64,000 nucleotides of DNA from Prochlorococcus sp. MIT 1341 (GTDB taxonomy: Bacteria; Cyanobacteriota; Cyanobacteriia; PCC-6307; Cyanobiaceae), in contig NZ_CP139304.1 of NCBI RefSeq assembly GCF_034092415.1, positions 1,038,001 through 1,102,000 on the forward strand. The letters are read 5' to 3'. Shown here one piece after another: positions 3,810-27,304 of this stretch (positions within the stretch are counted from its first letter, which is position 1; every line of letters begins with the position of its first letter). The translations under genes were made by a program, and so were the position numbers. Below the pieces are notes generated by a model that was not told where the DNA came from, did not search any database, and saw only the letters and a list, made by a program, of their open reading frames with translations.

Positions 3810-5267
3810 CTACCTCTTTAAAGTAAGGAAATGATTATCTTTTTTTTGCAAGATAGCTGCAGCAGCTAGATGTCCGCTCATTGTTGCTCCTTCCATAGAA
3901 TCAATATAGTCCTGTCGGGTATAACTTCCCGCTAAAAAGAAATTTTTAACTGCAGTCGATTGCTTTGGTCTATACGGTTCCATGCCAGGAGCTTCCCTAT
4001 ATAAAGATTGAGCAAGTTTCACAACATTGCTCCAAACGAGTTTTAAGGGCCTTGACGATGGAAATAATTCTCTAACCTGAGCATCAGTATGCTCAGCGAT
4101 CTCCTTAACTGGCTTAGGAATCCAGGGGTCACCAGGAGTTAAAACACACTGAAGCAATGAACCAAGTCCTTCAATTTGATAGTCTTCGGGGCTGGTAAGT
4201 GCTAAATCAGCAAAGCAACTAAAATCAGCATCGGCTGTATACAACAAATTATCTAAACCTCTAGAAAGTTCAGAATCATCCCTATTGGAATCATTTCTAA
4301 CCTCTGTAACCCAGCCATCATAACGTAATTGAACTGTTGCTACAGGAACAGCCTCCAGTCGATAGATTGCTTCGAATTGAGGAAATTTTTTCCACTCTTT
4401 TGGTAAAAGTTTTTGAATCCCAGGGACATCACATGCTGCCAGATATTTATCAGCCCGTATCTGAATATCTCCCTCAGGAGTTCCCAAATTTAATGCTGTT
4501 ATCAACGGATCTTTATCATTTTCATAAAGAACTTCTTTTACTCTATGACGTAAATGAAGCTTGCCACCCCTAGAAATAATGTAATCAATTATTGGACCAG
4601 TAAGCCAACGGTGAGGAGAACCCTTCAAAAGATTCAATTTTGATGCTTCAGTTCGAGTTGCAAACATCAAAAAAATAGTCAGCATACAACGTGCTGATAT
4701 TTGCTCGCAGTCAATAAAACCTAAGGCATAAGCTATAGGGTTCCACATTCTCTGAATACTTTGATGACTACCACCATGATTCAAAAACCAATTCTGAAAA
4801 CTAATTGAATCAAGCTGACGTATTGTGCTCATTGCTCCTTCATAGTCAAGCAAGCCTCTCACAATTGGGCTTGTCCCAAGTGCAAGGGCATTCCTAAGTT
4901 TATCAAGGGAATTCAACTGGGAAGTAGTAAAAAAGGCTTTCAACCCATTGAAAGGTGCTCCTAACGCAAAGCGAAAGTCCAAAGATCGAAGGTCTCCTCC
5001 CCGATTCACAAATAAGTGCGTATGTTCTTTTGGAAGAAGATTGTCAATTGCTCCTACCTTTTTCATCAATGCAAAGAGATTCGCATAGTTAAAAAAGAAA
5101 ACATGGAGACCCATTTCAATATGGTTTCCTTGGGGATCTTCCCAGCTGCCAACTTTCCCCCCAAAGAAAGGCCTTGCCTCATAAAGATCTACTTGATGGC
5201 CATCATCAACAAGATCTACTGCTGCCGTTAGTCCAGCAAGTCCAGCTCCAATAATTGCTACCCGCAC
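3810..5267 (-). CDS. zds: Zeta-carotene desaturase (plant-type)
   Basis: FAD-dependent amine-oxidase-fold enzyme that desaturates zeta-carotene to lycopene with plastoquinone as acceptor at the thylakoid membrane (also named crtQ). The dinucleotide-binding motif GAGLAGL is at residues 7-13, followed by [14 protein letters not shown]. The C-terminal [22 protein letters not shown] is the usual FAD-contacting motif of the Pds/Zds family. It is 485 residues, as expected. The start is GTG. A second desaturase (crtP) lies at 44.2-45.6 kb and is closer to phytoene desaturases, so this copy is assigned to the zeta-carotene step. Confidence 0.92.
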
Positions 5268-8863: not shown

Positions 8864-10960
8864 CTAACCTGACGAAGATAATGATTTCTCGACCACTTCA
8901 ATACTCTTTGGGAGAGAACGTTTTAATTGAGGCAAGCGCCAAACGGCTCCACTAAGCACACTACTCAAATCAGCAATCCCAAAAAGCAATGGATTGGAAT
9001 GTATCTTTTGAGCTTCATTTGCTATTGCTTTGGCTTTCCATGGGTTCCAATTAGCAATGGTTACGACACATTGATAAATACTTGGCCAAGGATTTTCAGG
9101 ACTAATCTTCTCTAAAACAGCGAAGTGCTTTGCTGCCTGCCCAGGACGATTAGCTAAAACTGACAATAGAGCAAGTGACCAGTGTGCATCAGCATCTAAT
9201 GCATTCACAGCCAATTTTCGAACAGCAATTTCTCGAACCCTATCCTGATAAAGAAAATGTCCATCAAGCATATGATGAACAGCTACCGCACTAAAAACAG
9301 GTTCAAGTCCTTTAAGTCCTTGGCTTAAGCCAATTGCCAATGAAGGAAATGTTGACGCGAAGGTAGGAAAAGATGGTGCTTCAGGACTTCTACGCCAAAG
9401 GGAATAACTATCCCCATTGCCGCGAGGGAAGGAACGAACCATAACAAATACATCGCTTGCTCGCACTGCACGATCTAGTAATAACGCGGAGTCACGTACT
9501 GATCCCTGATCGCCCTCAGCAAGAACCAACCACTGTGCATATTTTAAAACAAGATCTATATCGTCTTTACTACTTCCGAGTTGGCGTCCAACTAAATTTC
9601 CACCTGTTCTCCGTCCAAAGTAACTCACATTGTGTTGATTTAAATCAGGGGTACTTGGAACAACAATTAAAGTAGTTGGCGGTAAGTTTGGATTGGCTCC
9701 CCCTGCCGCAATGACGATTTCTTCAAGAGGTCCCTCATGTCTCTGAGAAAGACGACTTTTCTGAGAGAGCCATGAAGCTGGTAAAACAGCGAAGACACTT
9801 GCAAACAGTAGGTAAGAGAAAGAACCTTTAAAAAAAATAGGCCAACGAGACCTTAACCATATGTTCCATTGCATCCAACCTCTTGCTAACAAAAGAACTA
9901 ATAGTGGCAATAAGGGAGCTATATACCTATCACCTTTATTTGGACTAATACTTGTCAAAAGCCAACCCCCTACCAATGTACAAATCAACCAACGCCATTC
10001 ATAAGAATCATCAGCAAATAGTTTGTCTGGCAATAAATCCCTACAACTCTTTTGCCGCCTTAAAATCAAAAGTACCAGGCCACTGACTCCAACAAGAAGT
10101 ACAGCAGATCCTAATTGTCCAGGCAAAATCCGAGGGTACCAAATCCAATTTTCCAAAGTCCACAACATTGGATCCCCTTCTCGGGCTGCAGATTCAATTA
10201 CCGCACGATTTGTCCCACCCAAAGTTGTAATCCAATTGTGATGCAACCATGGAAGTACTCCTATCACAACGACTAGAACACCAGAAAAGAGTTGATATCG
10301 ATATGTTTTACTTCGGGTAAAGATATTCCAACTGGCATAAAAAAACATTGGTATGAGAAGCAATAAGGCACTCTGTTTAATCATCACGGCAGACAGGCAT
10401 AACAAAGCAGCAGTGAATACCTGAGACCATTTTTCACCAGTTTTAGGATGCCACCAACTTCCCAAACTAGAGATGGCAAGAGTCATAACAGCTGTCAAAG
10501 GCATTTCAAGTAGATAATCCAAACGAAGCTGCAATAAAGCAGGTGTAATAGCTACAAAAACTACAGACAATAAAGCCACAATCTGACCACTTAATCTCAA
10601 TCCCCACAAAGCCACCCCAAACAAAAGCATTCCGTGCCAGAGACTCAAACTCCACGCTGCTTGAGAGGGCGAATCTCCAGCGAGTGCAATAACGGTTCCA
10701 TTAACAAGAGAAGCCAGTGGTGGAATTTTTGGAGAAAGATCCAACAAAGCCGCCACTCCCTTCCATTGACCTCCTGGTAACAAACCTAAAGCGCGACCAT
10801 GGTCTAAAGCACTATTTAAATAATCAGCCTGATCCCAAGAGGGAAGACCTGCGTAATGACTCCACCAAACCCGATCAACAATTGTCGACAGCACCCATAT
10901 GGATGTTACAAAAACCCAAAATCGAAAATTACTGTTCACAAATTTTTCAGGCGGCGACAC
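8864..10960 (-). CDS. GT-C membrane glycosyltransferase (PMT/ArnT type) with TPR-like tail
   Basis: Protein of 698 residues with an N-terminal transmembrane helix, then the acidic luminal-loop motif D43-x-x-D46 (WDQADY) typical of dolichyl/undecaprenyl-phosphate-sugar glycosyltransferases. At least nine further hydrophobic helices run to about residue 390. A soluble part follows. Residues about 590-690 look TPR-like (DADAHWSLALLSVLANRPGQAAKHFAVL in parts). Acceptor and sugar are unknown. The start is uncertain: GTG at 10960 overlaps the J-domain gene by 25 bases, and GTG at 10939 would give a classic 4-base GTGA overlap. It is the last gene of the cysK unit. Confidence 0.82.
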   Translation of the reverse strand: MSPPEKFVNSNFRFWVFVTSIWVLSTIVDRVWWSHYAGLPSWDQADYLNSALDHGRALGLLPGGQWKGVAALLDLSPKIPPLASLVNGTVIALAGDSPSQAAWSLSLWHGMLLFGVALWGLRLSGQIVALLSVVFVAITPALLQLRLDYLLEMPLTAVMTLAISSLGSWWHPKTGEKWSQVFTAALLCLSAVMIKQSALLLLIPMFFYASWNIFTRSKTYRYQLFSGVLVVVIGVLPWLHHNWITTLGGTNRAVIESAAREGDPMLWTLENWIWYPRILPGQLGSAVLLVGVSGLVLLILRRQKSCRDLLPDKLFADDSYEWRWLICTLVGGWLLTSISPNKGDRYIAPLLPLLVLLLARGWMQWNIWLRSRWPIFFKGSFSYLLFASVFAVLPASWLSQKSRLSQRHEGPLEEIVIAAGGANPNLPPTTLIVVPSTPDLNQHNVSYFGRRTGGNLVGRQLGSSKDDIDLVLKYAQWLVLAEGDQGSVRDSALLLDRAVRASDVFVMVRSFPRGNGDSYSLWRRSPEAPSFPTFASTFPSLAIGLSQGLKGLEPVFSAVAVHHMLDGHFLYQDRVREIAVRKLAVNALDADAHWSLALLSVLANRPGQAAKHFAVLEKISPENPWPSIYQCVVTIANWNPWKAKAIANEAQKIHSNPLLFGIADLSSVLSGAVWRLPQLKRSLPKSIEVVEKSLSSSG

Positions 10961-14809: not shown

Positions 14810-16435
14810 ATGCGAAGGGCACCCAATACTGATCTAGCAATAAATGCCATCCCCATTAGAGGCTTGATTGGGTTATGGATCATTGGCTTATTAGTTGGCC
14901 TAATAGGCCTTGGAGCGGTTCCCCTTAGAGACTTTGATGAAGCGATAGTAGCCAGAGTAGCCCTTGAACTTAGTCATCACAAAGGAACTGGGGCATTGCT
15001 TCCAACCCTTTGGAATGAACCGTATATAAACAAGCCCCCAGGTTTACATTGGTTAATTGCAATTCTTATAAATCTAAATAGTGTTTTAAACCCTCACGGA
15101 TCGCAACCACCACCAGAGATAGTAATACGTCTTTTCCCTGCAATAATTTCGTCACTAATAATTCCAATCTGTGGATTAATTCAATGGCAATTAAAACCCG
15201 GTGAGCAATTTCCTAGTCTGGCTACATCAGCAATCTTTCTGACACTGCTACCTATCGCACGACATGGTCGGCTAGCCATGCTTGATGGGCCATGCATTAC
15301 TGCAATGGCATTGATTTGGCTACTTCTTTTATCAAACAACCGTACTATAATTGATTATCTACGAATGCTTGCTATTGGAATAACAAGTAGTTTTATTTTA
15401 ATGTTAAAAGCACCTCTATTAGTTCCTACTATATGTGCAGCATTGATACCAATTTTTTGGGGAAGGGAATTGAAGAAGTGGTGGAGATGGCCACTTGCTA
15501 TTGTTCTATTAATAGGACTATTACCTGGCATAAGTTGGCATATTTGGCATGGAATTAGTAGAGGAGATGCTGCCTTATGGCTTTGGGGTGGAGACGGTGC
15601 TGTACGAGTTTTATTTGATCCAGGGGAAGGAAGTGATTTGGGTTGGAAGGTACCATTAATTGAAATTTTAGAAGGGGGTTGGCCTTGGCTTTTGCTCTGG
15701 CCAATTGCTATAGCTTGGGCCTGGAAATCAAAGTACACTCGCTGGGGAAAATGGACACTTGGCACTCAAATAACTTTAGCTTTAACCATCCTGCCCTTAA
15801 AAACTCAACTTCCCTGGTATAGCCACCCTCTTTGGATTCCTTTTGGCTTGCTCTGTGGCCCAATATTGTCCTGGCTAATCACAAGAGAAAATAAACATCC
15901 AATAGTTTGTAAAAAAGTCTTAGAGAAGATTCCATTGGCATGGATTTTACTCGGTTCAATTATTCTATTACTGGGCTTGATTGGTACTTTGGGGTTAGTA
16001 AAGGAACTAAAGCCTTACAGCACTCTTGCCTTAGCAGGAGGTTTAGGTTGGGCAACAGGAGGACTACTAATTTATAAGCGTTCAAAAACAAAACGTCGCT
16101 TTGGGTTCCTAGCACTCTTAGCAGGAAATATCACAGCTCTAGCATTACTAATGGGATCGTCATTGTGGCTATGGGAGCTAAATGAGAGTTGGGCAGTGCA
16201 ACCAGTTGCAAAACTAATAGAAAAAACCAAAGACCATACTGTTGTAATTGCTGGTAGCGAAGAACGACCTAGTCTAAATTGGTATGCAGGGAAACAAATC
16301 AAACGACTGCAAGATGATCCAAGTGCAAAATGGATCCTCACTAAGAATCCAAAGGAATTTAAAAAGTTAAATCCTGCTAGAGATTGCTCTAGTTACATTA
16401 GTAATGAAGAATGGACATTACTTTCTTGTAATTAA
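14810..16435 (+). CDS. ArnT/PMT-like membrane glycosyltransferase
   Basis: GT-C enzyme of 541 residues with about 11-12 membrane helices. The first periplasmic loop has the acidic motif D41-x-D43-E44 (RDFDEAIVARVA), and K75PPG follows (INKPPGLHW), the hallmark pair of ArnT-like transferases that use an undecaprenyl-phosphate sugar donor. The C-terminal soluble part is short. It opens the plus-strand cluster and is followed 50 bases later by a GT2-GtrA protein that could make the lipid-linked sugar. The acceptor (lipid A, glycan or protein) is unknown. Confidence 0.85.
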   Translation: MRRAPNTDLAINAIPIRGLIGLWIIGLLVGLIGLGAVPLRDFDEAIVARVALELSHHKGTGALLPTLWNEPYINKPPGLHWLIAILINLNSVLNPHGSQPPPEIVIRLFPAIISSLIIPICGLIQWQLKPGEQFPSLATSAIFLTLLPIARHGRLAMLDGPCITAMALIWLLLLSNNRTIIDYLRMLAIGITSSFILMLKAPLLVPTICAALIPIFWGRELKKWWRWPLAIVLLIGLLPGISWHIWHGISRGDAALWLWGGDGAVRVLFDPGEGSDLGWKVPLIEILEGGWPWLLLWPIAIAWAWKSKYTRWGKWTLGTQITLALTILPLKTQLPWYSHPLWIPFGLLCGPILSWLITRENKHPIVCKKVLEKIPLAWILLGSIILLLGLIGTLGLVKELKPYSTLALAGGLGWATGGLLIYKRSKTKRRFGFLALLAGNITALALLMGSSLWLWELNESWAVQPVAKLIEKTKDHTVVIAGSEERPSLNWYAGKQIKRLQDDPSAKWILTKNPKEFKKLNPARDCSSYISNEEWTLLSCN

Positions 16436-16484
16436 GAAGCATTAACTTAAATTCTTCAAGACTCAAAGAAGTAACATCGTAATC

Positions 16485-17597
16485 ATGCCAATGCCACCGA
16501 CAATAAAACGCCTTTCGGTGGTTCTGCCCACATATAACGAAAGAGAGAATATTAGCCCTCTAATAAATAAGCTTCTTCAACTTACACAAACTTCTGACGT
16601 GGAGATAATCGTTGTTGATGATGACTCGCAAGATGGTACGGCAGAGATCGTCAAAAAAATCTCACAGGAAAATTGCAGAATTCGTCTGATTCGAAGAGTT
16701 GGACGTTCCGGACTCGCTAGCGCAATCAAAGAAGGGTTGCTTGCAGCCACTGGAGATATTGCTGCTGTAATGGACAGTGATGGCCAGCATGAACCAATTG
16801 CATTAATAAATGCATTAGCTCTTCAACAAGAGGCAAACTTAGACCTAGTTGCTGGAAGTCGTTTCCTTGAAGGTGCAGAAATCCATGGACTTAGCAAAAG
16901 GAGAACAGGAGGATCAACATTAGCCAACAATTTTGCGCGTATGAGTCTCTCAAAAAACTACCGTCAGCTGACCGATTATATGAGCGGTTGCTTTGTGATA
17001 AAACTCAAATCTTGTCTCAATATTATATACAAAGTTGATGTAAATGGATTCAAATTTCTGTATGAGATCCTTTCTGTCAGTCGTGGAAAGCTAAAGGTTG
17101 GAGAAATACCATTATCTTTTCAACCTCGCTCGTATGGGAACTCAAAATTAGATTTAGCGATTCTCTGGGATTTCTTGATATCAGTTCTGCATACTCTAAC
17201 CTTAAGGCTATTACCAAGAAGGGCAATTAGTTTTGCATTAGTTGGCAGTGGCGGGGTATTGGTTCAACTTTTATCCACTGAAGTGCTTATGATAATTTTC
17301 CAACTAGCTTTTCAAAAAGCTCTACCAATTTCAGTAATTATTGCAGCTACCTCAAACTATCTAATAAATAATGCACTAACTTTTAGATCTCAAAGGCTAG
17401 TTGGCAAAAAGTTAGCAAAAGGACTTTTAAAATTTCTTCTCGTGGCTTCTTTACCTGTAATCGCAAATGTTGGTTTGGCAACAACTTTTTATAACTTAAT
17501 CTCACCGAATCCAGTAATTGCTCAACTAGCAGGAATAATTGTAGTGTTTGTATGGAACTATGCAGCTTCTTCAAGGTTTGTATGGAATACTCCCTAG
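16485..17597 (+). CDS. GT2 polyprenyl-phosphate glycosyltransferase fused to GtrA-like membrane domain
   Basis: Residues 6 to about 230 are a GT2 domain of the dolichyl-phosphate-mannose synthase type: SVVLPTYNERENI, then VVDDDSQDGTAEI, then VMDSDGQHEP, then the GSRFLEGAEI segment. Residues about 240-370 carry four hydrophobic helices of the GtrA type, thought to flip or scaffold lipid-linked sugars. The protein would charge undecaprenyl phosphate with a hexose at the inner face of the plasma membrane. Sugar identity is unknown. The next gene starts inside its last 16 bases, so it and the downstream PMT-like enzyme are coupled. Confidence 0.88.
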   Translation: MPMPPTIKRLSVVLPTYNERENISPLINKLLQLTQTSDVEIIVVDDDSQDGTAEIVKKISQENCRIRLIRRVGRSGLASAIKEGLLAATGDIAAVMDSDGQHEPIALINALALQQEANLDLVAGSRFLEGAEIHGLSKRRTGGSTLANNFARMSLSKNYRQLTDYMSGCFVIKLKSCLNIIYKVDVNGFKFLYEILSVSRGKLKVGEIPLSFQPRSYGNSKLDLAILWDFLISVLHTLTLRLLPRRAISFALVGSGGVLVQLLSTEVLMIIFQLAFQKALPISVIIAATSNYLINNALTFRSQRLVGKKLAKGLLKFLLVASLPVIANVGLATTFYNLISPNPVIAQLAGIIVVFVWNYAASSRFVWNTP

Positions 17598-19147
17598 CGA
17601 AAGTGTTGCCCAAAATACAACCACATACAAGAAAATATAATTTTTTCCTACCAATATTAATTGGTTTTTCCCTACGTCTAATCAATTTAAATATGCCAGT
17701 CCTAGGAGTACATAGCTGGCGACAAGCAGATACTGCAGCAATGGCTAGGCACTTTGCTATTAACAATACGCCTATTTGGCTACCTCAAATTGACTGGGGC
17801 GGTGCAACAGATGGCTTAGTGGAAGCTGAATTCCCAATATACTCTTATCTATTGGCAAAGTTTTATCAATACATAGGAATAAATGAATGGATTGGTCGAG
17901 GACTTTCCGCTGTTTTCAGTTCACTAACTATTGCACTAATAATAAAGATTTGTACAAAACTTTTAGATGAGAAAAGTGCTTGGTGGGGTGGATTATTCTT
18001 CGCAATTTGTCCGATTGGTGTGTATTACGGTAGAACAGTTCAAGCCGAGTCATTACTTTTACTATTGGGTGCATTGAGTATTAAGAGTATGATGGATTGG
18101 AAATCTAATAAAAGCTTTTTGAGGCTAATAGTTAGCTGGGTTGCATATACACTTGCCTGTCTTATCAAAGTTCTACCTTTGGCATGGTTAGGCTTACCTA
18201 TATTAATTATATTTATCGGCTCAGGGGATTATTCAAGAAAATTAGATCTAACTCATATTATCATATTAATCAAAGGAATGCTCAGAAAGATTGGTCCATG
18301 GCTATATCTATTAGGTTCTTTATTAATGGTTCTTTTCTGGTATTCATACTCATATAACCTTGGTAAGGTGAATGGATTAAGTTTCGGCTTCTGGGGTGAA
18401 AGCTCTGATAGAAGTAGTCTAAAGCTTCTAATAGATGCAGGGATATGGTCAAATCTTATTCTAAGGGTAACTCTCAGAAATCTTTCGATTTTTGGTCTTC
18501 CTCTCCTGATAATTGGCATTATAAAATCCTTTAAAACTGAAGGAGGAAAAATCTTGTTTTCTGGATTAACTGGTGTCTTTATTTGTACATTATTTGCACT
18601 CCGAGCTAGTGCAACCCATGAATACTATCAATTACCACTTCAACTATTCTTCTGCCCGCTAATGGGGAAAGGATTTGCAGAATTCCTAAACTTAACTCAA
18701 TCATCTTTAAAGCATTGGAATCTTATTATTATTTCACTACTTATTACGACTAGCCTTATAATTCTTTCCCTAGATTATTGGTCTTTAGAGCAACGCCAGA
18801 ATAGAGTCTGGATGCCTTTAGCAAAGGAAATACGTGCAAAAGTTCCAGAAAATAATTTGATAATTAGTGTTACTGGAGCCGATCCAACACTGCTTAATTT
18901 AGCACGTAGACAAGGATGGATACTATCTGTAAAAGATGTCACAAAGCAGTATCTACAATTATTATCAGAGCAAGGTGCAAAATATATCGTGGGAAGCCTC
19001 AACTGGGAAGAGACTCACATACCTCTTAATGAAAAGAAAATCAAGAAAGATATAGAGGAATTATTATGTATAAATAATGGCCAAGCTAATTGTATCGAAA
19101 GCAATAATTTAACTTATATATTTAACCTTAAGGAAGTACTTCAATGA
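17582..19147 (+). CDS. PMT-family membrane glycosyltransferase
   Basis: GT-C protein of 521 residues from the chosen ATG at 17582, which has AAGG upstream and overlaps the previous gene by 16 bases; a start at 17552 would overlap by 46. The motif D50 in HSWRQADTAAMARHF and the EAEFPIYSYLLAKFY loop are typical of the dolichyl-phosphate-mannose-protein mannosyltransferase (GT39/83) superfamily. About ten hydrophobic helices are seen, with a C-terminal soluble stretch. It would accept the lipid-linked sugar made by the GT2-GtrA neighbour. Acceptor unknown. Confidence 0.8.
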   Translation: MEYSLAKVLPKIQPHTRKYNFFLPILIGFSLRLINLNMPVLGVHSWRQADTAAMARHFAINNTPIWLPQIDWGGATDGLVEAEFPIYSYLLAKFYQYIGINEWIGRGLSAVFSSLTIALIIKICTKLLDEKSAWWGGLFFAICPIGVYYGRTVQAESLLLLLGALSIKSMMDWKSNKSFLRLIVSWVAYTLACLIKVLPLAWLGLPILIIFIGSGDYSRKLDLTHIIILIKGMLRKIGPWLYLLGSLLMVLFWYSYSYNLGKVNGLSFGFWGESSDRSSLKLLIDAGIWSNLILRVTLRNLSIFGLPLLIIGIIKSFKTEGGKILFSGLTGVFICTLFALRASATHEYYQLPLQLFFCPLMGKGFAEFLNLTQSSLKHWNLIIISLLITTSLIILSLDYWSLEQRQNRVWMPLAKEIRAKVPENNLIISVTGADPTLLNLARRQGWILSVKDVTKQYLQLLSEQGAKYIVGSLNWEETHIPLNEKKIKKDIEELLCINNGQANCIESNNLTYIFNLKEVLQ

Positions 19148-20775
19148 AGATAAATATCTTACCAAATTCCAATAAGCCATCTTCAAAAATTGTTCTTCTT
19201 TGGATAATTTGTTTCTCTATTGTAATTTTTACACTGCAAACATGGAGGATATTTAGTCTTAATGCAACTTATGATCAAGGTCTTTTCCTCCAAGAAATCT
19301 GGAATACGTTACAGGGAAGGCCATTTGAAAGCACATTAGCTTCAGAACTTTCTTCACCAGTTAAATTCGAAGGTGAGCTTCCCGAGCTTGGATATAGACA
19401 TTTAGCTCAACATTTCACCCCTCTTCTAGCTATCTGGGCTCCTTTGGTAGGGCTTATAGGAATCTGGTCTCTCCCCTTTATTCAAGTCGCAGTAATTGCT
19501 TCCGCAGGATGGGTGTTATTCCTTTTAGGTAAAGAATACCTGCCAGAGCAACTTGCTGGTTGGATTGCTTGTAGCTTTTTCACAACTGGAACAGTTCTAG
19601 GTCCATCACTTGAAAATTTTCACGATCTTTGCATCATTCCATTACTTGTCTTTAGTTTAATTCTAGGGATAAGTAGGGAACAAAAGCTTTTATATTTTAT
19701 CCCAGCACTTCTACTTCCCCTTGTAAGAGAAGATGTTGGATTAATGACATTTAGTATTGGTATTTGGATGGTTTTTCGAAAACCTAATTGGAGAGTGTGG
19801 GGAATAGGCCTGTGCATATATGCTTTAACTGCTGTACTTATAATTACAAATCAAATCATGCCTTTATTTGGCTCTGAACTATCAACAAGGTTTATCCAAG
19901 AGAGATTTGGTCAGTATCTAAATGGAGAGACAGGCGGGACAATAGATGTTCTAATTAGTATGGCTAAACAGCCCGGCTTATTGCTAAAAGAGCTAATTTC
20001 ACCTATAGGAAGTACAGTTAGGCTTTTCGTAACACTATTTCTTCCGTTAGCTTTTATACCTTTGTTATCAATAGATGTTTGGTTTCTCATAGCGGTTCCG
20101 CTCTTTGTTGCACTTAGTTCACAAGGTGGAAATGCAATGTCTGTGCATCTCCGATTTATGCTTTACCTAGTCCCTGGTGTCTTTGCAGGTTCAATTTTTT
20201 GGTGGAGTAAAAAGCATCATTTATTTCAGGTGAAAAGATATCAAAGCATATGGAAAATTTGTATGGTGATAGGCATATTTTTCACCTTAACTGGAAACCC
20301 ACATCGTTCACTATCAGTCATAATACCGGATAGTATTGATCCTTGGGTACATATACCAATTCATAAACAATTGATACGCGGAGTTAATGCACAAAATCTT
20401 TTTTCTTTAATTCCACCCGACTCATCTGTGGCTGCAGAAACACATCTAATACCTCAACTTTCTGAAAGACGAATTCTTCTTCGCTTCCCAGAAAACTATA
20501 TGTATAAAGACTTAAACGGAAAAAGAAAAGAAGTGGATTATATCATCAGCCAACCAGCTTATAATGCAGACTATTCTTCTGCGTTTAGACATCATAGAAT
20601 TTGGGTCCTAAGAAGCAATCAAACTCTAGAAAAGCTAGTCAATTCTAAAGCATATGGTGTCTACTATTGCGACCCATATTCAATTATTCTGAGAAAAGAT
20701 TTACAATCTCTAGCTAAAGATAAGAAGTGCATGGCAACCCAGTTAAAAAAAACAATGCGCAAGTCACTTCAATAA
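19144..20775 (+). CDS. DUF2079 membrane protein, copy 1
   Basis: Protein of 543 residues with about 10-11 membrane helices, matching DUF2079, an uncharacterised family with the look of GT-C transferases. The first loop has YDQGLFLQEIWNTLQG with a conserved Asp, then LGYRHLAQHFTPLL and a PLVREDVG motif near residue 195. The C-terminal part has LIPQLSERRILLRFP. Its ATG overlaps the previous stop (ATGA at 19144-19147), coupling it to the PMT-like gene. It is closely similar to the gene at 22514. Function unknown. Confidence 0.8.
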   Translation: MKINILPNSNKPSSKIVLLWIICFSIVIFTLQTWRIFSLNATYDQGLFLQEIWNTLQGRPFESTLASELSSPVKFEGELPELGYRHLAQHFTPLLAIWAPLVGLIGIWSLPFIQVAVIASAGWVLFLLGKEYLPEQLAGWIACSFFTTGTVLGPSLENFHDLCIIPLLVFSLILGISREQKLLYFIPALLLPLVREDVGLMTFSIGIWMVFRKPNWRVWGIGLCIYALTAVLIITNQIMPLFGSELSTRFIQERFGQYLNGETGGTIDVLISMAKQPGLLLKELISPIGSTVRLFVTLFLPLAFIPLLSIDVWFLIAVPLFVALSSQGGNAMSVHLRFMLYLVPGVFAGSIFWWSKKHHLFQVKRYQSIWKICMVIGIFFTLTGNPHRSLSVIIPDSIDPWVHIPIHKQLIRGVNAQNLFSLIPPDSSVAAETHLIPQLSERRILLRFPENYMYKDLNGKRKEVDYIISQPAYNADYSSAFRHHRIWVLRSNQTLEKLVNSKAYGVYYCDPYSIILRKDLQSLAKDKKCMATQLKKTMRKSLQ

Positions 20776-21030
20776 GTTTAAATGTCAAAAATTAAAATAA
20801 GAAAAGAACTCAACTAATAGGCTTAAAACAAAAAATATATCAGGTTTTCACTTATTTCTGAAGCAAGCTGCCGAATAGAAAGGAACCTAATGCAAAATGG
20901 AGTGTTGAAACTATAATTAATGGACATATGCCAAAATCAGTATGTCAACTAATTCAGAAACTTAATCTCTTTTAATTGAATTCTCCTCAAACCATCTCAT
21001 CAAAAACCTAAATCATAAGGCCTAAACAAT
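20776..21030. other. Intergenic region inside the DUF2079 cluster
   Basis: The 255-base AT-rich gap between DUF2079 copies 1 and 2 is much longer than the overlaps before it, so a new promoter is plausible. No terminator-like hairpin and no convincing ORF were seen. Confidence 0.4.
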
Positions 21031-22425
21031 TTGATAGAAACACTAAAACCACGAATCAGACTAACTACAGTCTGTACAGCAATTTTCCTATTATTCTGGA
21101 TACTTTCCTCCACTAGACATTGGCTTCTACAAAGCAATGCATATGACTTAGGGCTCTTCGACCAATGGATATGGCTGATTAGTAAAAGACTACCTCCTTA
21201 TTCCTCTATGGAAGGAGTTCATGTACTTGCTGATCATGGAGCATTATCGCTCTATATAGCAGCTATACCTTATCGAATTTTTTCCAGTGTTCACTGGCTC
21301 CTAGCAAGTCAAGCTGCGGCACTTAGCTTTACTGCCATACCTTTGTGGTGGCTTTCCGAGAAGGCAGGACTTAGCAGAAAGCTCTGTTGGCTTGCATGTG
21401 GCCTCTGGTGGCTTCAACCTGTTGTATTTAATGTAAATCTTTTTGATTTCCACCCTGAAGTTTGGGCAATGCCAGCTCTTGCAATCAGCTTCTGGTGTAG
21501 TCGGAACGAAAAATTTTGGCTTTGGCTCCTCTCATTATTCTTTCTACTTAGTTGCAGGGATGGTTTAGTACTAATCATTCTTGGAATTGGAATAGAACAG
21601 ATTTTAAGGAAAAGATGGCAATGGGGAATTACAGCTATCGGGATTTCTTTCGGCTGGCTAATTATTTTAAATAATTTGCTATACCCATTTCTAACAAAAA
21701 ATAATTCGGGTCCTAAAGCTATTGGAACTCTCTTTTCCTATCTCGGAAACAGTCTGGAGGAGGTTGTAATTAATCTATTAACCAAGCCAAATCTGCTTAT
21801 TCAAAACGTAAATTGGCTAGATGGAATCTTTTATTTGATTCTTATATCAATATCTTTAGCACCTTTCTGGAAAAAACAATCAGTATTTGCATTGTCATCA
21901 GGAATTCCTTTAATAATAGTGAATTTCCTATCTTCTGAGGCACCTCAAAGGACACTTATACATCATTACAGTCTGCCAATTGCTGTCATAACGGTTATTG
22001 GTGCAATCGACGGACTCGCCATAAACCCAAGACAAAACATTCCTTATACAAAACTCTTTTGGAGTACTCTATGTTGGGTGACACTTGCAAAGCCATGGTT
22101 TTTTGCTGGTCATTATTTAAATCGCATCCAATATATTGGGGTTATTAGAGAAGTAACAACAGAAATACCAAAGGAAGCTAAACTAATCACAACTAGCTAT
22201 TTGGTACCCCATTTCAGCCATAGAGTCAAAGTTGACTTTCCAAGAGAAGGCAATGATTTAGAACTTATTAATGATACTGATATTTTGTTGCTTAATCCTA
22301 TTGATCCTGGATGGGGGTCAACTAACAATATTCAATCTGATCTAATAGAGGCTGTGAAAGAAAAGGAATGGAATTGTAGTCATATTAAAGAAGAGTTAGT
22401 GCTTTGCAAAAAACCTCAGGCTTAA
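21031..22425 (+). CDS. DUF2079 membrane protein, copy 2 (divergent)
   Basis: Protein of 464 residues starting at TTG 21031 with AAGG about 10 bases upstream. The DUF2079 signature is present: SNAYDLGLFDQWIW in the first loop, then DFHPEVWAMP and, at the C-terminus, LVPHFSHRVKVDFP. About nine hydrophobic helices are seen. It is clearly more distant from copies 1 and 3 than they are from each other, lacking the STLxSxLSS insert. Family function is unknown; a GT-C type transferase is a guess from topology. Confidence 0.78.
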   Translation: MIETLKPRIRLTTVCTAIFLLFWILSSTRHWLLQSNAYDLGLFDQWIWLISKRLPPYSSMEGVHVLADHGALSLYIAAIPYRIFSSVHWLLASQAAALSFTAIPLWWLSEKAGLSRKLCWLACGLWWLQPVVFNVNLFDFHPEVWAMPALAISFWCSRNEKFWLWLLSLFFLLSCRDGLVLIILGIGIEQILRKRWQWGITAIGISFGWLIILNNLLYPFLTKNNSGPKAIGTLFSYLGNSLEEVVINLLTKPNLLIQNVNWLDGIFYLILISISLAPFWKKQSVFALSSGIPLIIVNFLSSEAPQRTLIHHYSLPIAVITVIGAIDGLAINPRQNIPYTKLFWSTLCWVTLAKPWFFAGHYLNRIQYIGVIREVTTEIPKEAKLITTSYLVPHFSHRVKVDFPREGNDLELINDTDILLLNPIDPGWGSTNNIQSDLIEAVKEKEWNCSHIKEELVLCKKPQA

Positions 22426-22513
22426 GCTAATTAAAATAAATAGTTAACTTTATAATAAAAGATCGTGAATCTTGAGCAATCTTCTCTATTGTAATCAGAT
22501 CTATAAAAACTTA

Positions 22514-24139
22514 ATGAAGCCTGCTATAGAACAAAGTTTTACTTCTGACAGACATGTCTGGTTAGCTGCAAGCATTTTCTTTTTCACTTGCCTTCTTCTA
22601 CAAGTTTGGCGGATGCAAAGTCTTACATCTTCAATGGACCAAGGCATCTTATATCAAATTCTATGGAACGGTCTCCAAGGGCATCCTTTCGAAAGCACTT
22701 TATCCTCTCAACTATCATCCAACGTCGTACATACTGGTGATATACCTACAGTTGGTTACCACAGATTAGGGCAACATTTCACACCAATCCTAATCATCTG
22801 GCTTCCTCTTATAAGTTTAATGGGGAAATGGGCCCTACCGATATTACAGGTCGCGCTTATTACACTTTCCGGATTATTTCTCTATCAATTAGCAAAGCTA
22901 CATCTGAAAAAAAAAGTGGCTTCAATGATAACATTTTCCTATCTTGGGGCAAATGCTGTTATAGGTCCTTGTCTTGGTAATTTCACAGACCTAGCACAGC
23001 TTCCTCTTACAGTATTTGCATTAATTATAGGAATAGAAACACGCAACAAATGGCTAATATTAATTCCTGCTCTTGCTATTCCGCTAATACGTGAAGATAC
23101 AGGTGTAGTCCTTATGGGAATAGGTTTATGGGTAATTTTACGTCAAAGAAAAAATTTGCTTCTTGGAAGTTTACTTCTCTTTTATGGTGGGGCTTGGGTG
23201 CTGATAGCTACTAATTTACTTATGCCTATCTTTAGCGACGACACATCTAAAAGATTTATGGTAGAAAATTTTGGTCAATACTTACAAGGGAAAAACGAGG
23301 CCAATAGTCTCGAGGTTATTAAATTAGCCCTCCAGCAACCTCTGGTAATTATCAAGGAAATAGTTACACCACCAGGGCAAACATTGAGATATCTTCTAGG
23401 TCAATTTTTGCCTCTAATGTTTATTCCTCTCATCTCACTCGATAGCTGGGTTATTATGGGACTCCCTCTTTTAGGGCTTTTAATGGCACAAGGTAATCCA
23501 CTTGCCATCAATTGGAGATACACATATCTAGTCGTTCCTGGAATATTTTCTGGAAGCATATACTGGTGGAAAAACAATCCAAATATTACACTTAATAGTA
23601 GGCTTAAGAGTATCTGGGTAGGGTGTATTTTATTATCATTGATTTTTACATTAACTAGCAACCCGAATCGTACTATTTCTTGGCTTATGCCGGAAAGTAT
23701 TAATCCCTGGGTCTATCATTCTCCTTTTAAACAATGGAAGCATTCTCGAATAGCACTAAAGTCAATTCAACAGATTCCTCCTAACGCATCTGTATCAGCT
23801 AGCTCAACATTAGTACCTCATCTTGCTTCAAGAGAAGCACTCATCCGTTTCCCTTATCACATTCGCTACAAAAATAGGCAAGGAGAGACAGCCTATGTGG
23901 ATTGGGTTGTTGCCGACATATATCATCACCAGAAATATGCTTCTTCTTTCAAGAATGAATGGAAGGATCTTCAGGAAATTATCCAAGTTCTTCAAAATAT
24001 GGAAGGAAAATATTCTCCGGTTTTTACCGAAGATGGAATTGTTTTATTTCAATTAAATGGCAAAAACAATCCAAAGGTAAGTAGTAATTACAAAAAACTA
24101 CTGGAAAAGATCTCCTCAATCACTCCACCAAAACCCTAA
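22514..24139 (+). CDS. DUF2079 membrane protein, copy 3
   Basis: Protein of 541 residues from the ATG at 22514; a TTG at 22472 would add 14 residues with no homology to copy 1. It is collinear with copy 1: MDQGILYQILWNGLQG, then FESTLSSQLSSNV, GYHRLGQHFTPIL, PLIREDTG, and LVPHLASREALIRFP near the C-terminus. These shared blocks mark the two as paralogues, split by copy 2. About ten hydrophobic helices. Function unknown. Confidence 0.8.
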   Translation: MKPAIEQSFTSDRHVWLAASIFFFTCLLLQVWRMQSLTSSMDQGILYQILWNGLQGHPFESTLSSQLSSNVVHTGDIPTVGYHRLGQHFTPILIIWLPLISLMGKWALPILQVALITLSGLFLYQLAKLHLKKKVASMITFSYLGANAVIGPCLGNFTDLAQLPLTVFALIIGIETRNKWLILIPALAIPLIREDTGVVLMGIGLWVILRQRKNLLLGSLLLFYGGAWVLIATNLLMPIFSDDTSKRFMVENFGQYLQGKNEANSLEVIKLALQQPLVIIKEIVTPPGQTLRYLLGQFLPLMFIPLISLDSWVIMGLPLLGLLMAQGNPLAINWRYTYLVVPGIFSGSIYWWKNNPNITLNSRLKSIWVGCILLSLIFTLTSNPNRTISWLMPESINPWVYHSPFKQWKHSRIALKSIQQIPPNASVSASSTLVPHLASREALIRFPYHIRYKNRQGETAYVDWVVADIYHHQKYASSFKNEWKDLQEIIQVLQNMEGKYSPVFTEDGIVLFQLNGKNNPKVSSNYKKLLEKISSITPPKP

Positions 24140-25236: not shown

Positions 25237-25261
25237 GCTGTAAGTTCTTCGGGATAGCCAT

Positions 25262-25333
25262 TCCTCGGTAGCTCAGCGGTAGAGCGGTCGACTGTTAATC
25301 GATTGGTCGCAGGTTCGAATCCCGCCCGGGGAG
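25262..25333 (+). tRNA. trnN: tRNA-Asn (GUU)
   Basis: A 72-base cloverleaf without encoded CCA. The acceptor arms are TCCTCGG and CCGGGGA with discriminator G, the D-stem is GCTC/GAGC, the anticodon loop is CTGTTAA with anticodon GTT, and the T-loop is TTCGAAT. The acceptor stem contains one T-G pair. In the T-stem GCAGG faces CCCGC, so position 51 A opposes position 63 C, a mismatch not expected in this tRNA. All other features are normal for asparagine. Confidence 0.97.
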
Positions 25334-25346
25334 TTTTTTATCCCTC

Positions 25347-25972: not shown

Positions 25973-27304
25973 ATGTTAAATAAAAATAAGCTTCACGAGT
26001 TATCTAAAAGTTGGCTTAATTCATCGAGTTATTTCTTACAGAAAGTTACAGCAAAGCTATCAACTTTAAAACAAAAAAACAATTTTTTGAACAACATTTT
26101 CTTTTTAATCATAGCAAGTGGTTTGCTTCTTGGTGCCAGTTCAAGTGCATTTCTGCAAGCATCAAATCAAGATTATGGTGTACATACCGTTTCCATGATC
26201 ACTCCTTATTGTTTGGCGATCCTGTATATAGGAATCTGTACCTTCCTAGGCCAGCTTAACAAGAATAGAGCTCTAAAAAGTATTATTATATTTGTCATTT
26301 TATGCATTCCATTGATTCCTTATTTATCAATAACGATCGCTCATGGAATGGACGATGCAAACAGATATGCTTTATATGCTCATAACATAATTAGCGAAAG
26401 AACGTTGTGGGGGTCTGATGGACTTATGTATGAAGGTAAGCTCAATTACATAGACCAGCCAGGATATAGATATTGGCTAGCTCTGTTAATGTGCATATTT
26501 AATGGTGAAACACGTGCTCTTCAAATATTTAACCTTGGTGTGCTCTTACTTTGTTCTTTAGGATTACTTCTATCAATAAAGCCAAGGTTAAATAGCATCG
26601 ACATTTCTAAGATTGCTCTCTTTTTCATGCTTTCATCTCCCTATGCTGCTAAAAACATCTTAATGGGATTAACCGAATGGTTTTCAATAGTATTATTTCT
26701 AGGATATATAACCTTCTTAACACTTAATAAGCCATTAATATCAACTATACTAGCGGCACTTCTACCATTTATAAGGCAAAACCTTTTTATTACCTCAGGG
26801 GTTCTAGCCATGCTCTTATTTATACAGTTTCGTAAGCGATGGATAATATTACTCTACCCCACTATAGCAGCATTGCCGCTATACCATAATCTATACTTTG
26901 CAGGAAAATTTAAACTACTGGTTGAGAATACAGGTACATCCGTTGATAGGTTTAATAGCTTAAATATTATTACTCCATTAAAATATATCTTCGCTGCAGC
27001 CTTACGTTCTTTAGAGTATATAGGTTATGAACCAGAAACAAATATTCTTGCTCTAGCAATAGCCTGGATCTTTGTTCCTATTGGAACATTCCTAGTCCTA
27101 AAAGAGTTCCTTTCCAAAAGAAAACAAACAAGAAAAATTGCTTTCCTATTATTGTTAGCGACTATTGGTCCAACTCTGGTGTTCGGATATGCATATTACC
27201 CTCGATTTGTCTATGTTAGCCAAACAATTTCGCTTATATCTTTGATCGTTTTACCTAAATTAATAACTAATACAAAACAAAAGAGTCACTATGAATTAGC
27301 ATAG
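25973..27304 (+). CDS. Multi-pass membrane protein, GT-C glycosyltransferase-like
   Basis: Protein of 443 residues with a soluble N-terminal 40 residues and about ten hydrophobic helices. The loop DDANRYALYAHNI and the following YIDQPGYRYWLAL resemble the acidic loop and aromatic motif of polyprenyl-phosphate-sugar dependent GT-C enzymes, but no family could be named. Codon use is very AT-rich, as in the DUF2079 cluster 2 kb upstream. It stands alone between gene-poor stretches, after a tRNA. A transferred or strain-specific gene is possible. Confidence 0.65.
   Translation: MLNKNKLHELSKSWLNSSSYFLQKVTAKLSTLKQKNNFLNNIFFLIIASGLLLGASSSAFLQASNQDYGVHTVSMITPYCLAILYIGICTFLGQLNKNRALKSIIIFVILCIPLIPYLSITIAHGMDDANRYALYAHNIISERTLWGSDGLMYEGKLNYIDQPGYRYWLALLMCIFNGETRALQIFNLGVLLLCSLGLLLSIKPRLNSIDISKIALFFMLSSPYAAKNILMGLTEWFSIVLFLGYITFLTLNKPLISTILAALLPFIRQNLFITSGVLAMLLFIQFRKRWIILLYPTIAALPLYHNLYFAGKFKLLVENTGTSVDRFNSLNIITPLKYIFAAALRSLEYIGYEPETNILALAIAWIFVPIGTFLVLKEFLSKRKQTRKIAFLLLLATIGPTLVFGYAYYPRFVYVSQTISLISLIVLPKLITNTKQKSHYELA

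Follow-up and report, generated by a model that had tools for sequence, protein, structure and literature searches.

Three-component transmembrane glycosylation systems have been described as GtrA/GtrB/Gtr*, CsbB-GtcA-YfhO, and GtlA-GtcA-GtlB, whereby a GT2 polyprenyl-phosphate-sugar synthase, a GtrA-type part, and a PMT_2-type GT-C glycosyltransferase are encoded together (PMC8035078, PMC11127046). Such multi-component systems are the closest described systems to a cluster of six genes, G1 to G6, which we analyzed within a 64,000-nt stretch of DNA (the window). The window is part of a single-contig genome of 1.94 Mb, and the genus group of this genome also holds the Prochlorococcus single-cell genomes AG-363-M17 and AG-363-P08. 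As in the described systems, the cluster comprises a GT2 synthase, a GtrA domain, and an adjoining PMT_2-type gene (G3), which nearly always occurs with the synthase. In contrast to these systems, the GtrA part is fused to the GT2 part, and the cluster contains four additional GT-C-type genes, three of which encode DUF2079 proteins; the distribution of these four does not follow that of the GT2-GtrA gene. The cluster is a variant of the multi-component type that includes DUF2079 and has more GT-C-type members than is typical, and we regard it as rather likely that it functions as a multi-component transmembrane glycosylation cluster. Since one lipid-sugar loader and five GT-C-type membrane proteins adjoin, the cell surface is probably decorated with a previously undescribed sugar structure.

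Organization of the Gene Cluster

The cluster extends from position 14810 to 24139 of the window and consists of six uninterrupted ORFs, all on the plus strand, in the order G1, G2, G3, G4, G5, and G6. This agrees with the initial annotation, which had described six consecutive plus-strand genes with overlaps of 16 bases and ATGA. Both overlaps were found, namely 16 nt between G2 and G3 (17582–17597) and the 4-nt ATGA between G3 and G4 (19144–19147), whereby the former hinges on the choice of start codon (an alternative ATG for G3 is located upstream at 17552) and is absent from the nearest relative (L076), where G2 ends at 4746 and G3 starts at 4768. G4 and G5 are separated by a gap of 255 nt. 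The ORF of G6 opens with a TTG at 22472 and offers an alternative ATG at 22514, which is probably the actual start because of the start positions in homologues. Fused DUF2079 proteins, which were suggested by open frames of approximately 1100 aa in the search table, were not confirmed by the ORF maps, in which stops separate them.

Folds and Families of G1, G2, and G3

G1 (14810–16435, plus strand) encodes a putative ArnT/GT83-like GT-C glycosyltransferase of 541 aa. The first gene had been annotated as ArnT/PMT-like, and this likeness was brought out by structure: G1 has no Pfam match and no relevant NCBIfam family above cut-off, and a search of its alignment profile against the PDB sequences yielded no ArnT chain at E ≤ 1, with one weak irrelevant match. 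The predicted model (pLDDT 88.9) aligned to ArnT (5F15) with a Z of 32.4 and an rmsd of 3.6 over 477 residues, followed by the next group at Z 25. According to this model, G1 has the ArnT fold from end to end. Unlike ArnT, G1 escapes the sequence family models, and the common fold does not imply an L-Ara4N function for G1. An alignment of 42 rows revealed the invariant residues R40, D41, D43, E44, N74, K75, and P77; the first outer loop carries an invariant RD-x-DE motif, which is followed downstream by NKPP.

The second to sixth genes had been annotated as GT2-GtrA, PMT-like, and three DUF2079 genes, which is in line with the Pfam results, as the GT2, GtrA, PMT_2, and DUF2079 domains all exceed the Pfam cut-offs. 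G2 (16485–17597, plus strand) harbors a GT2 domain (PF00535) and a GtrA domain (PF04138, E 2.4e-21). Its residues 9–369 match the dolichol-phosphate mannose synthase (DPMS) of Pyrococcus furiosus (5MLZ) with an E value of 1.8e-38, whereby the architecture is common to all of G2 and the catalytic MDxDxQHxP motif is retained. On the basis of this full-length match, G2 is predicted to be a DPMS-type polyprenyl-phosphate-sugar synthase in which the GT2 part is fused to a GtrA-type membrane domain. G3 (17582–19147, plus strand) encodes a protein of 521 aa that is assigned by its domain match (PF13231, E 4e-10) to the GT-C family PMT_2 and shows the invariant motifs HSWRQADT and EFP. The alignment profile of G3 gave no match to the PDB sequences at E ≤ 1.

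The DUF2079 Proteins Have a Predicted GT-C Fold

The remaining three genes of the cluster, all on the plus strand, are clear members of the DUF2079 family (PF09852), which Pfam presumably places in the GT-C clan. These are G4 (19144–20775, long type, 543 aa, E 3.2e-125), G5 (21031–22425, short type, 464 aa with an uncertain TTG start, E 2.6e-114), and G6 (22514–24139, a second long-type paralogue of 541 aa, E 1.2e-125). Their scores of 419, 383, and 421 bits (all E < 1e-113) compare with a gathering cut-off of 28.2 bits. DUF2079 occurs in 127 of the 386 genomes sampled from the cyanobacterial phylum, thus in about one third, and no function for it was found in the literature searched.

An AlphaFold model of G4, built from 84 homologues, reached a pLDDT of 92.9 and a pTM of 0.92. 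Foldseek matches of this model at E ≤ 0.001 were OST/STT3, ArnT, ALG12, DPY19, and PglB, as well as one other that is labelled by its complex title. Structural alignment yielded 53 chains with Z ≥ 8, and the 50 entries listed, with Z values between 9.1 and 19.2, consist without exception of GT-C proteins and of GT-C-like subunits (PIG-U of the GPI transamidase). Hence the comparison of the DUF2079 structure with GT-C folds, which had been suggested as a check, revealed a GT-C fold for G4. By its model, DUF2079 is clearly GT-C-like in fold, which by itself does not prove catalysis; G5 and G6 are assigned to GT-C by their membership in the family of G4. The alignment profile of DUF2079 gave no match to the PDB sequences at E ≤ 1, and hhalign comparisons among the DUF2079, G1, and G3 alignments gave no significant match; thus, the link between these three is by fold only.

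Among the entries listed, the highest Z values were obtained for STT3A of the STT3/OST group (19.2, over approximately 420 residues), ArnT (18.9), and PglB (17.6). This order would suit oligosaccharyltransferase-type GT-C enzymes, which move a whole lipid-diphosphate oligosaccharide independently of G2 or any DPMS. However, Z values within 1 of each other count as tied, so that STT3 does not stand out from ArnT, and GT-CA folds look alike for monophosphate and diphosphate lipid donors, so the fold leaves the donor class of DUF2079 undecided.

Seven columns are invariant in the DUF2079 alignment. Four of them (D44, Q50, S63, and H90) are located in the first outer loop, and three (Q114, P166, and R442) elsewhere. 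D44, which lies between TM1 (13–37) and the helix 93–130, is present in 84 of 84 sequences of both the long and the short type, and the same sequences all share H90. The essential acid of GT-C enzymes sits in the first outer loop, where D44 provides DUF2079 with a conserved acidic residue. A review speculated about a possible requirement of small GT-C enzymes for helper proteins (PMC8035078), and the presence of three DUF2079 genes in a row, from a family without known activity, would fit non-enzymes with a GT-C fold that serve G1 and G3 as acceptor-binding or flippase-like helpers. We consider this very improbable, as it is at odds with the invariance of D44 and H90 and with 12 genomes that carry DUF2079 without G1 and G2. 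With a predicted fold, candidate catalytic residues, and partners, DUF2079 becomes a family whose function can be tested in those tractable cyanobacteria in which it occurs.

Phylogenetic analysis of 81 DUF2079 proteins, performed with a quick method and subject to composition and long-branch warnings, showed a deep split between the long and the short type. Different clades hold G4, G5, G6, the members of a fourth long group, and the two DUF2079 copies that this genome carries elsewhere. As each position in the row forms an old clade of its own, a recent tandem duplication was rejected; the tree rather suggests that the three genes are old paralogues that were kept together. The two copies outside the row (L056 7555, near 269.7 kb, and L057 7993, near 774 kb) represent a separate divergent clade.

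Conservation of the Cluster Across Genomes

G1 to G6 are present in identical order in single-cell genomes, e.g., AG-363-M17, AG-409-M05, AG-363-B04, AG-409-J16, and AG-409-J19, and because of this recurrence the cluster does not represent a chance arrangement. In the Prochlorococcus single-cell genomes the row is flanked on one side by a porin gene (NF033921) and cysK and on the other side by genes for a small conserved protein (PRK13683), an ABC ATPase, an OmpR-type response regulator, and a DNA polymerase III delta-prime-like protein. The location of five GT-C-type genes in a single row next to the porin gene is indicative of an envelope glycan in this Prochlorococcus. Sugars on the cell surface can play a role in grazing and in the entry of phages. 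Several relatives are devoid of both G2 and G3, some also of G5 or G6; in L043, L067, L068, L069, and L072, G2 and G3 are jointly absent from otherwise retained clusters. No relative was found in the viral contigs searched.

The initial annotation had suggested a comparison across Prochlorococcus genomes, and in 151 genomes of the family the genes were found to co-occur and to co-localize. DUF2079 is present in 83, G1 in 79, G2 in 91, and G3 in 47 of them, and all pairwise associations are positive, with Fisher p values of 1.7e-10 for G2-G3, 7e-13 for DUF2079-G1, and 4e-7 for DUF2079-G3, which serve as a guide only since the genomes are related (and some are incomplete single-cell assemblies). 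Of the genomes that carry both genes of a pair, 34 of 39 have DUF2079 and G3 within 8 kb, 36 of 41 have G1 and G3, and 47 of 63 have DUF2079 and G1. The gene order varies; judged by coordinates it is G3-G1-DUF2079 in G048, G108, and G037, and it is DUF2079-G1-G2-G3-DUF2079 in L055. This difference in order between lineages speaks for a kept association rather than the mere shared descent of one block: G1, G3, and DUF2079 have remained neighbors despite several rearrangements, and the set is inherited together.

These data also bear on the question of whether the genes merely share a location, i.e., a hotspot island beside the porin gene that collects envelope membrane genes with unrelated products. 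Conserved flanks around a variable content, a GC dip to 0.36 inside the cluster, and a nearby tRNA-Asn gene (25261–25334) would fit such an island. We nevertheless regard it as quite unlikely, because G1, G3, and DUF2079 are found together in different orders and at different sites and are statistically interdependent, and because all genes of the row are of the glycosyltransferase type.

With regard to local composition, the GC content is 0.36–0.39 from G2 to G6 (16001–24000 of the window) and 0.42–0.46 immediately on either side. Just past the tRNA-Asn gene, a low-GC stretch harbors the gene for a further multi-membrane protein of 443 aa (25973–27304) with a weak match to a cell-surface glycopolymer family. 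This protein is absent from that place in the relatives mapped, and the gene is possibly a recent insertion. On the other side, beyond cysK and the porin gene, a PMT-family GT-C protein of 698 aa (8864–10960, minus strand; PF02366, E 3.9e-8) is encoded outside the row as a possible associate. In several loci of Synechococcus and Vulcanococcus, relatives of this protein (approximately 40–45% identity) directly adjoin DUF2079, and the locus maps show the DUF2079 gene there to be of the G6 type.

The GT2-GtrA Synthase Tracks G3

The cluster had been annotated with the GT2-GtrA enzyme as the sugar supplier for the whole row, which did not hold up, as G2 tracks G3. Wherever G3 is present, G2 is found as well in 45 of 47 genomes, and since G3 occurs almost only together with G2, the pattern fits a synthase and its transferase. 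A role of GT2-GtrA as the common donor of the row was not supported: DUF2079 and G2 are linked within 8 kb in 25 of the 58 genomes that carry both, 23 genomes possess DUF2079 without a G2 orthologue, and G1, like DUF2079, often occurs without a GT2-GtrA orthologue or far from one. All 12 checked genomes with DUF2079 but without G2 contain at least one other DPMS/GtrB-type GT2. In genome G071 (L049), G1, G3, and two DUF2079 genes are located together, and the GT2-GtrA gene is 20 kb away.

The frequent presence of DUF2079 without G2 would again suit the oligosaccharyltransferase type, as would some loci of distant cyanobacteria (L155, L158, L169, and L171) in which DUF2079 is co-oriented with a gene for GT4, a kind of enzyme able to build lipid-linked oligosaccharides. 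On the other hand, picocyanobacterial DUF2079 genes repeatedly adjoin synthases of the GT2-GtrA or the GtrB-like type, the latter at L058, L059, L071, L075, L094, and L097 (RCC307). Taken together, we consider a transfer of whole oligosaccharides by DUF2079 to be unlikely. A general adjacency of DUF2079 to GtrB-type GT2 genes was not found in distant cyanobacteria: in 20 of them, most DPMS/GtrB-type GT2 genes are located at a great distance from DUF2079, the exceptions being G189 and perhaps G210.

In the preferred reading as a multi-component glycosylation cluster, G2 would use a nucleotide sugar to load polyprenyl phosphate at the cytoplasmic side, after which the sugar, linked to its lipid, would reach the periplasmic side via the GtrA domain of G2 or otherwise. 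G3, which tracks G2, would transfer the G2-made sugar, and G1 and the DUF2079 enzymes may carry out further steps on the same periplasmic acceptor, whereby their donors might be those of G2 or other lipid-linked sugars from separate GtrB-like GT2 enzymes. The cluster could serve to decorate an envelope glycan, lipid A/core, or a glycoprotein. The GtrB-like GT2 and GT4 neighbors of DUF2079 agree with this reading, and the weak linkage between DUF2079 and G2 counts against it. The suggestion of the initial annotation that the DUF2079 genes encode further transferases for a surface glycan or glycoprotein pathway is thus strengthened by the GT-C fold and the co-localization, loses the common GT2-GtrA supply, and stays conjectural as regards the product. 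More tentatively, DUF2079 might represent a set of GT-C transferase families that serve marine and other cyanobacteria as exchangeable modules in combination with ArnT- and PMT-like enzymes, which would result in a lineage-specific periplasmic glycan of new structure.

In four of the 20 distant loci (L154, L155, L156, and L158), a long-type DUF2079 gene is located near sasA (in L156 identified by similarity only), and some of these loci also have the GT4 gene beside it. sasA encodes the histidine kinase of the circadian clock that contains a KaiB domain. In the window, the OmpR-type response regulator, which is kin to RpaA or RpaB and scores below the RpaB cut-off, is encoded 4 kb past the cluster.
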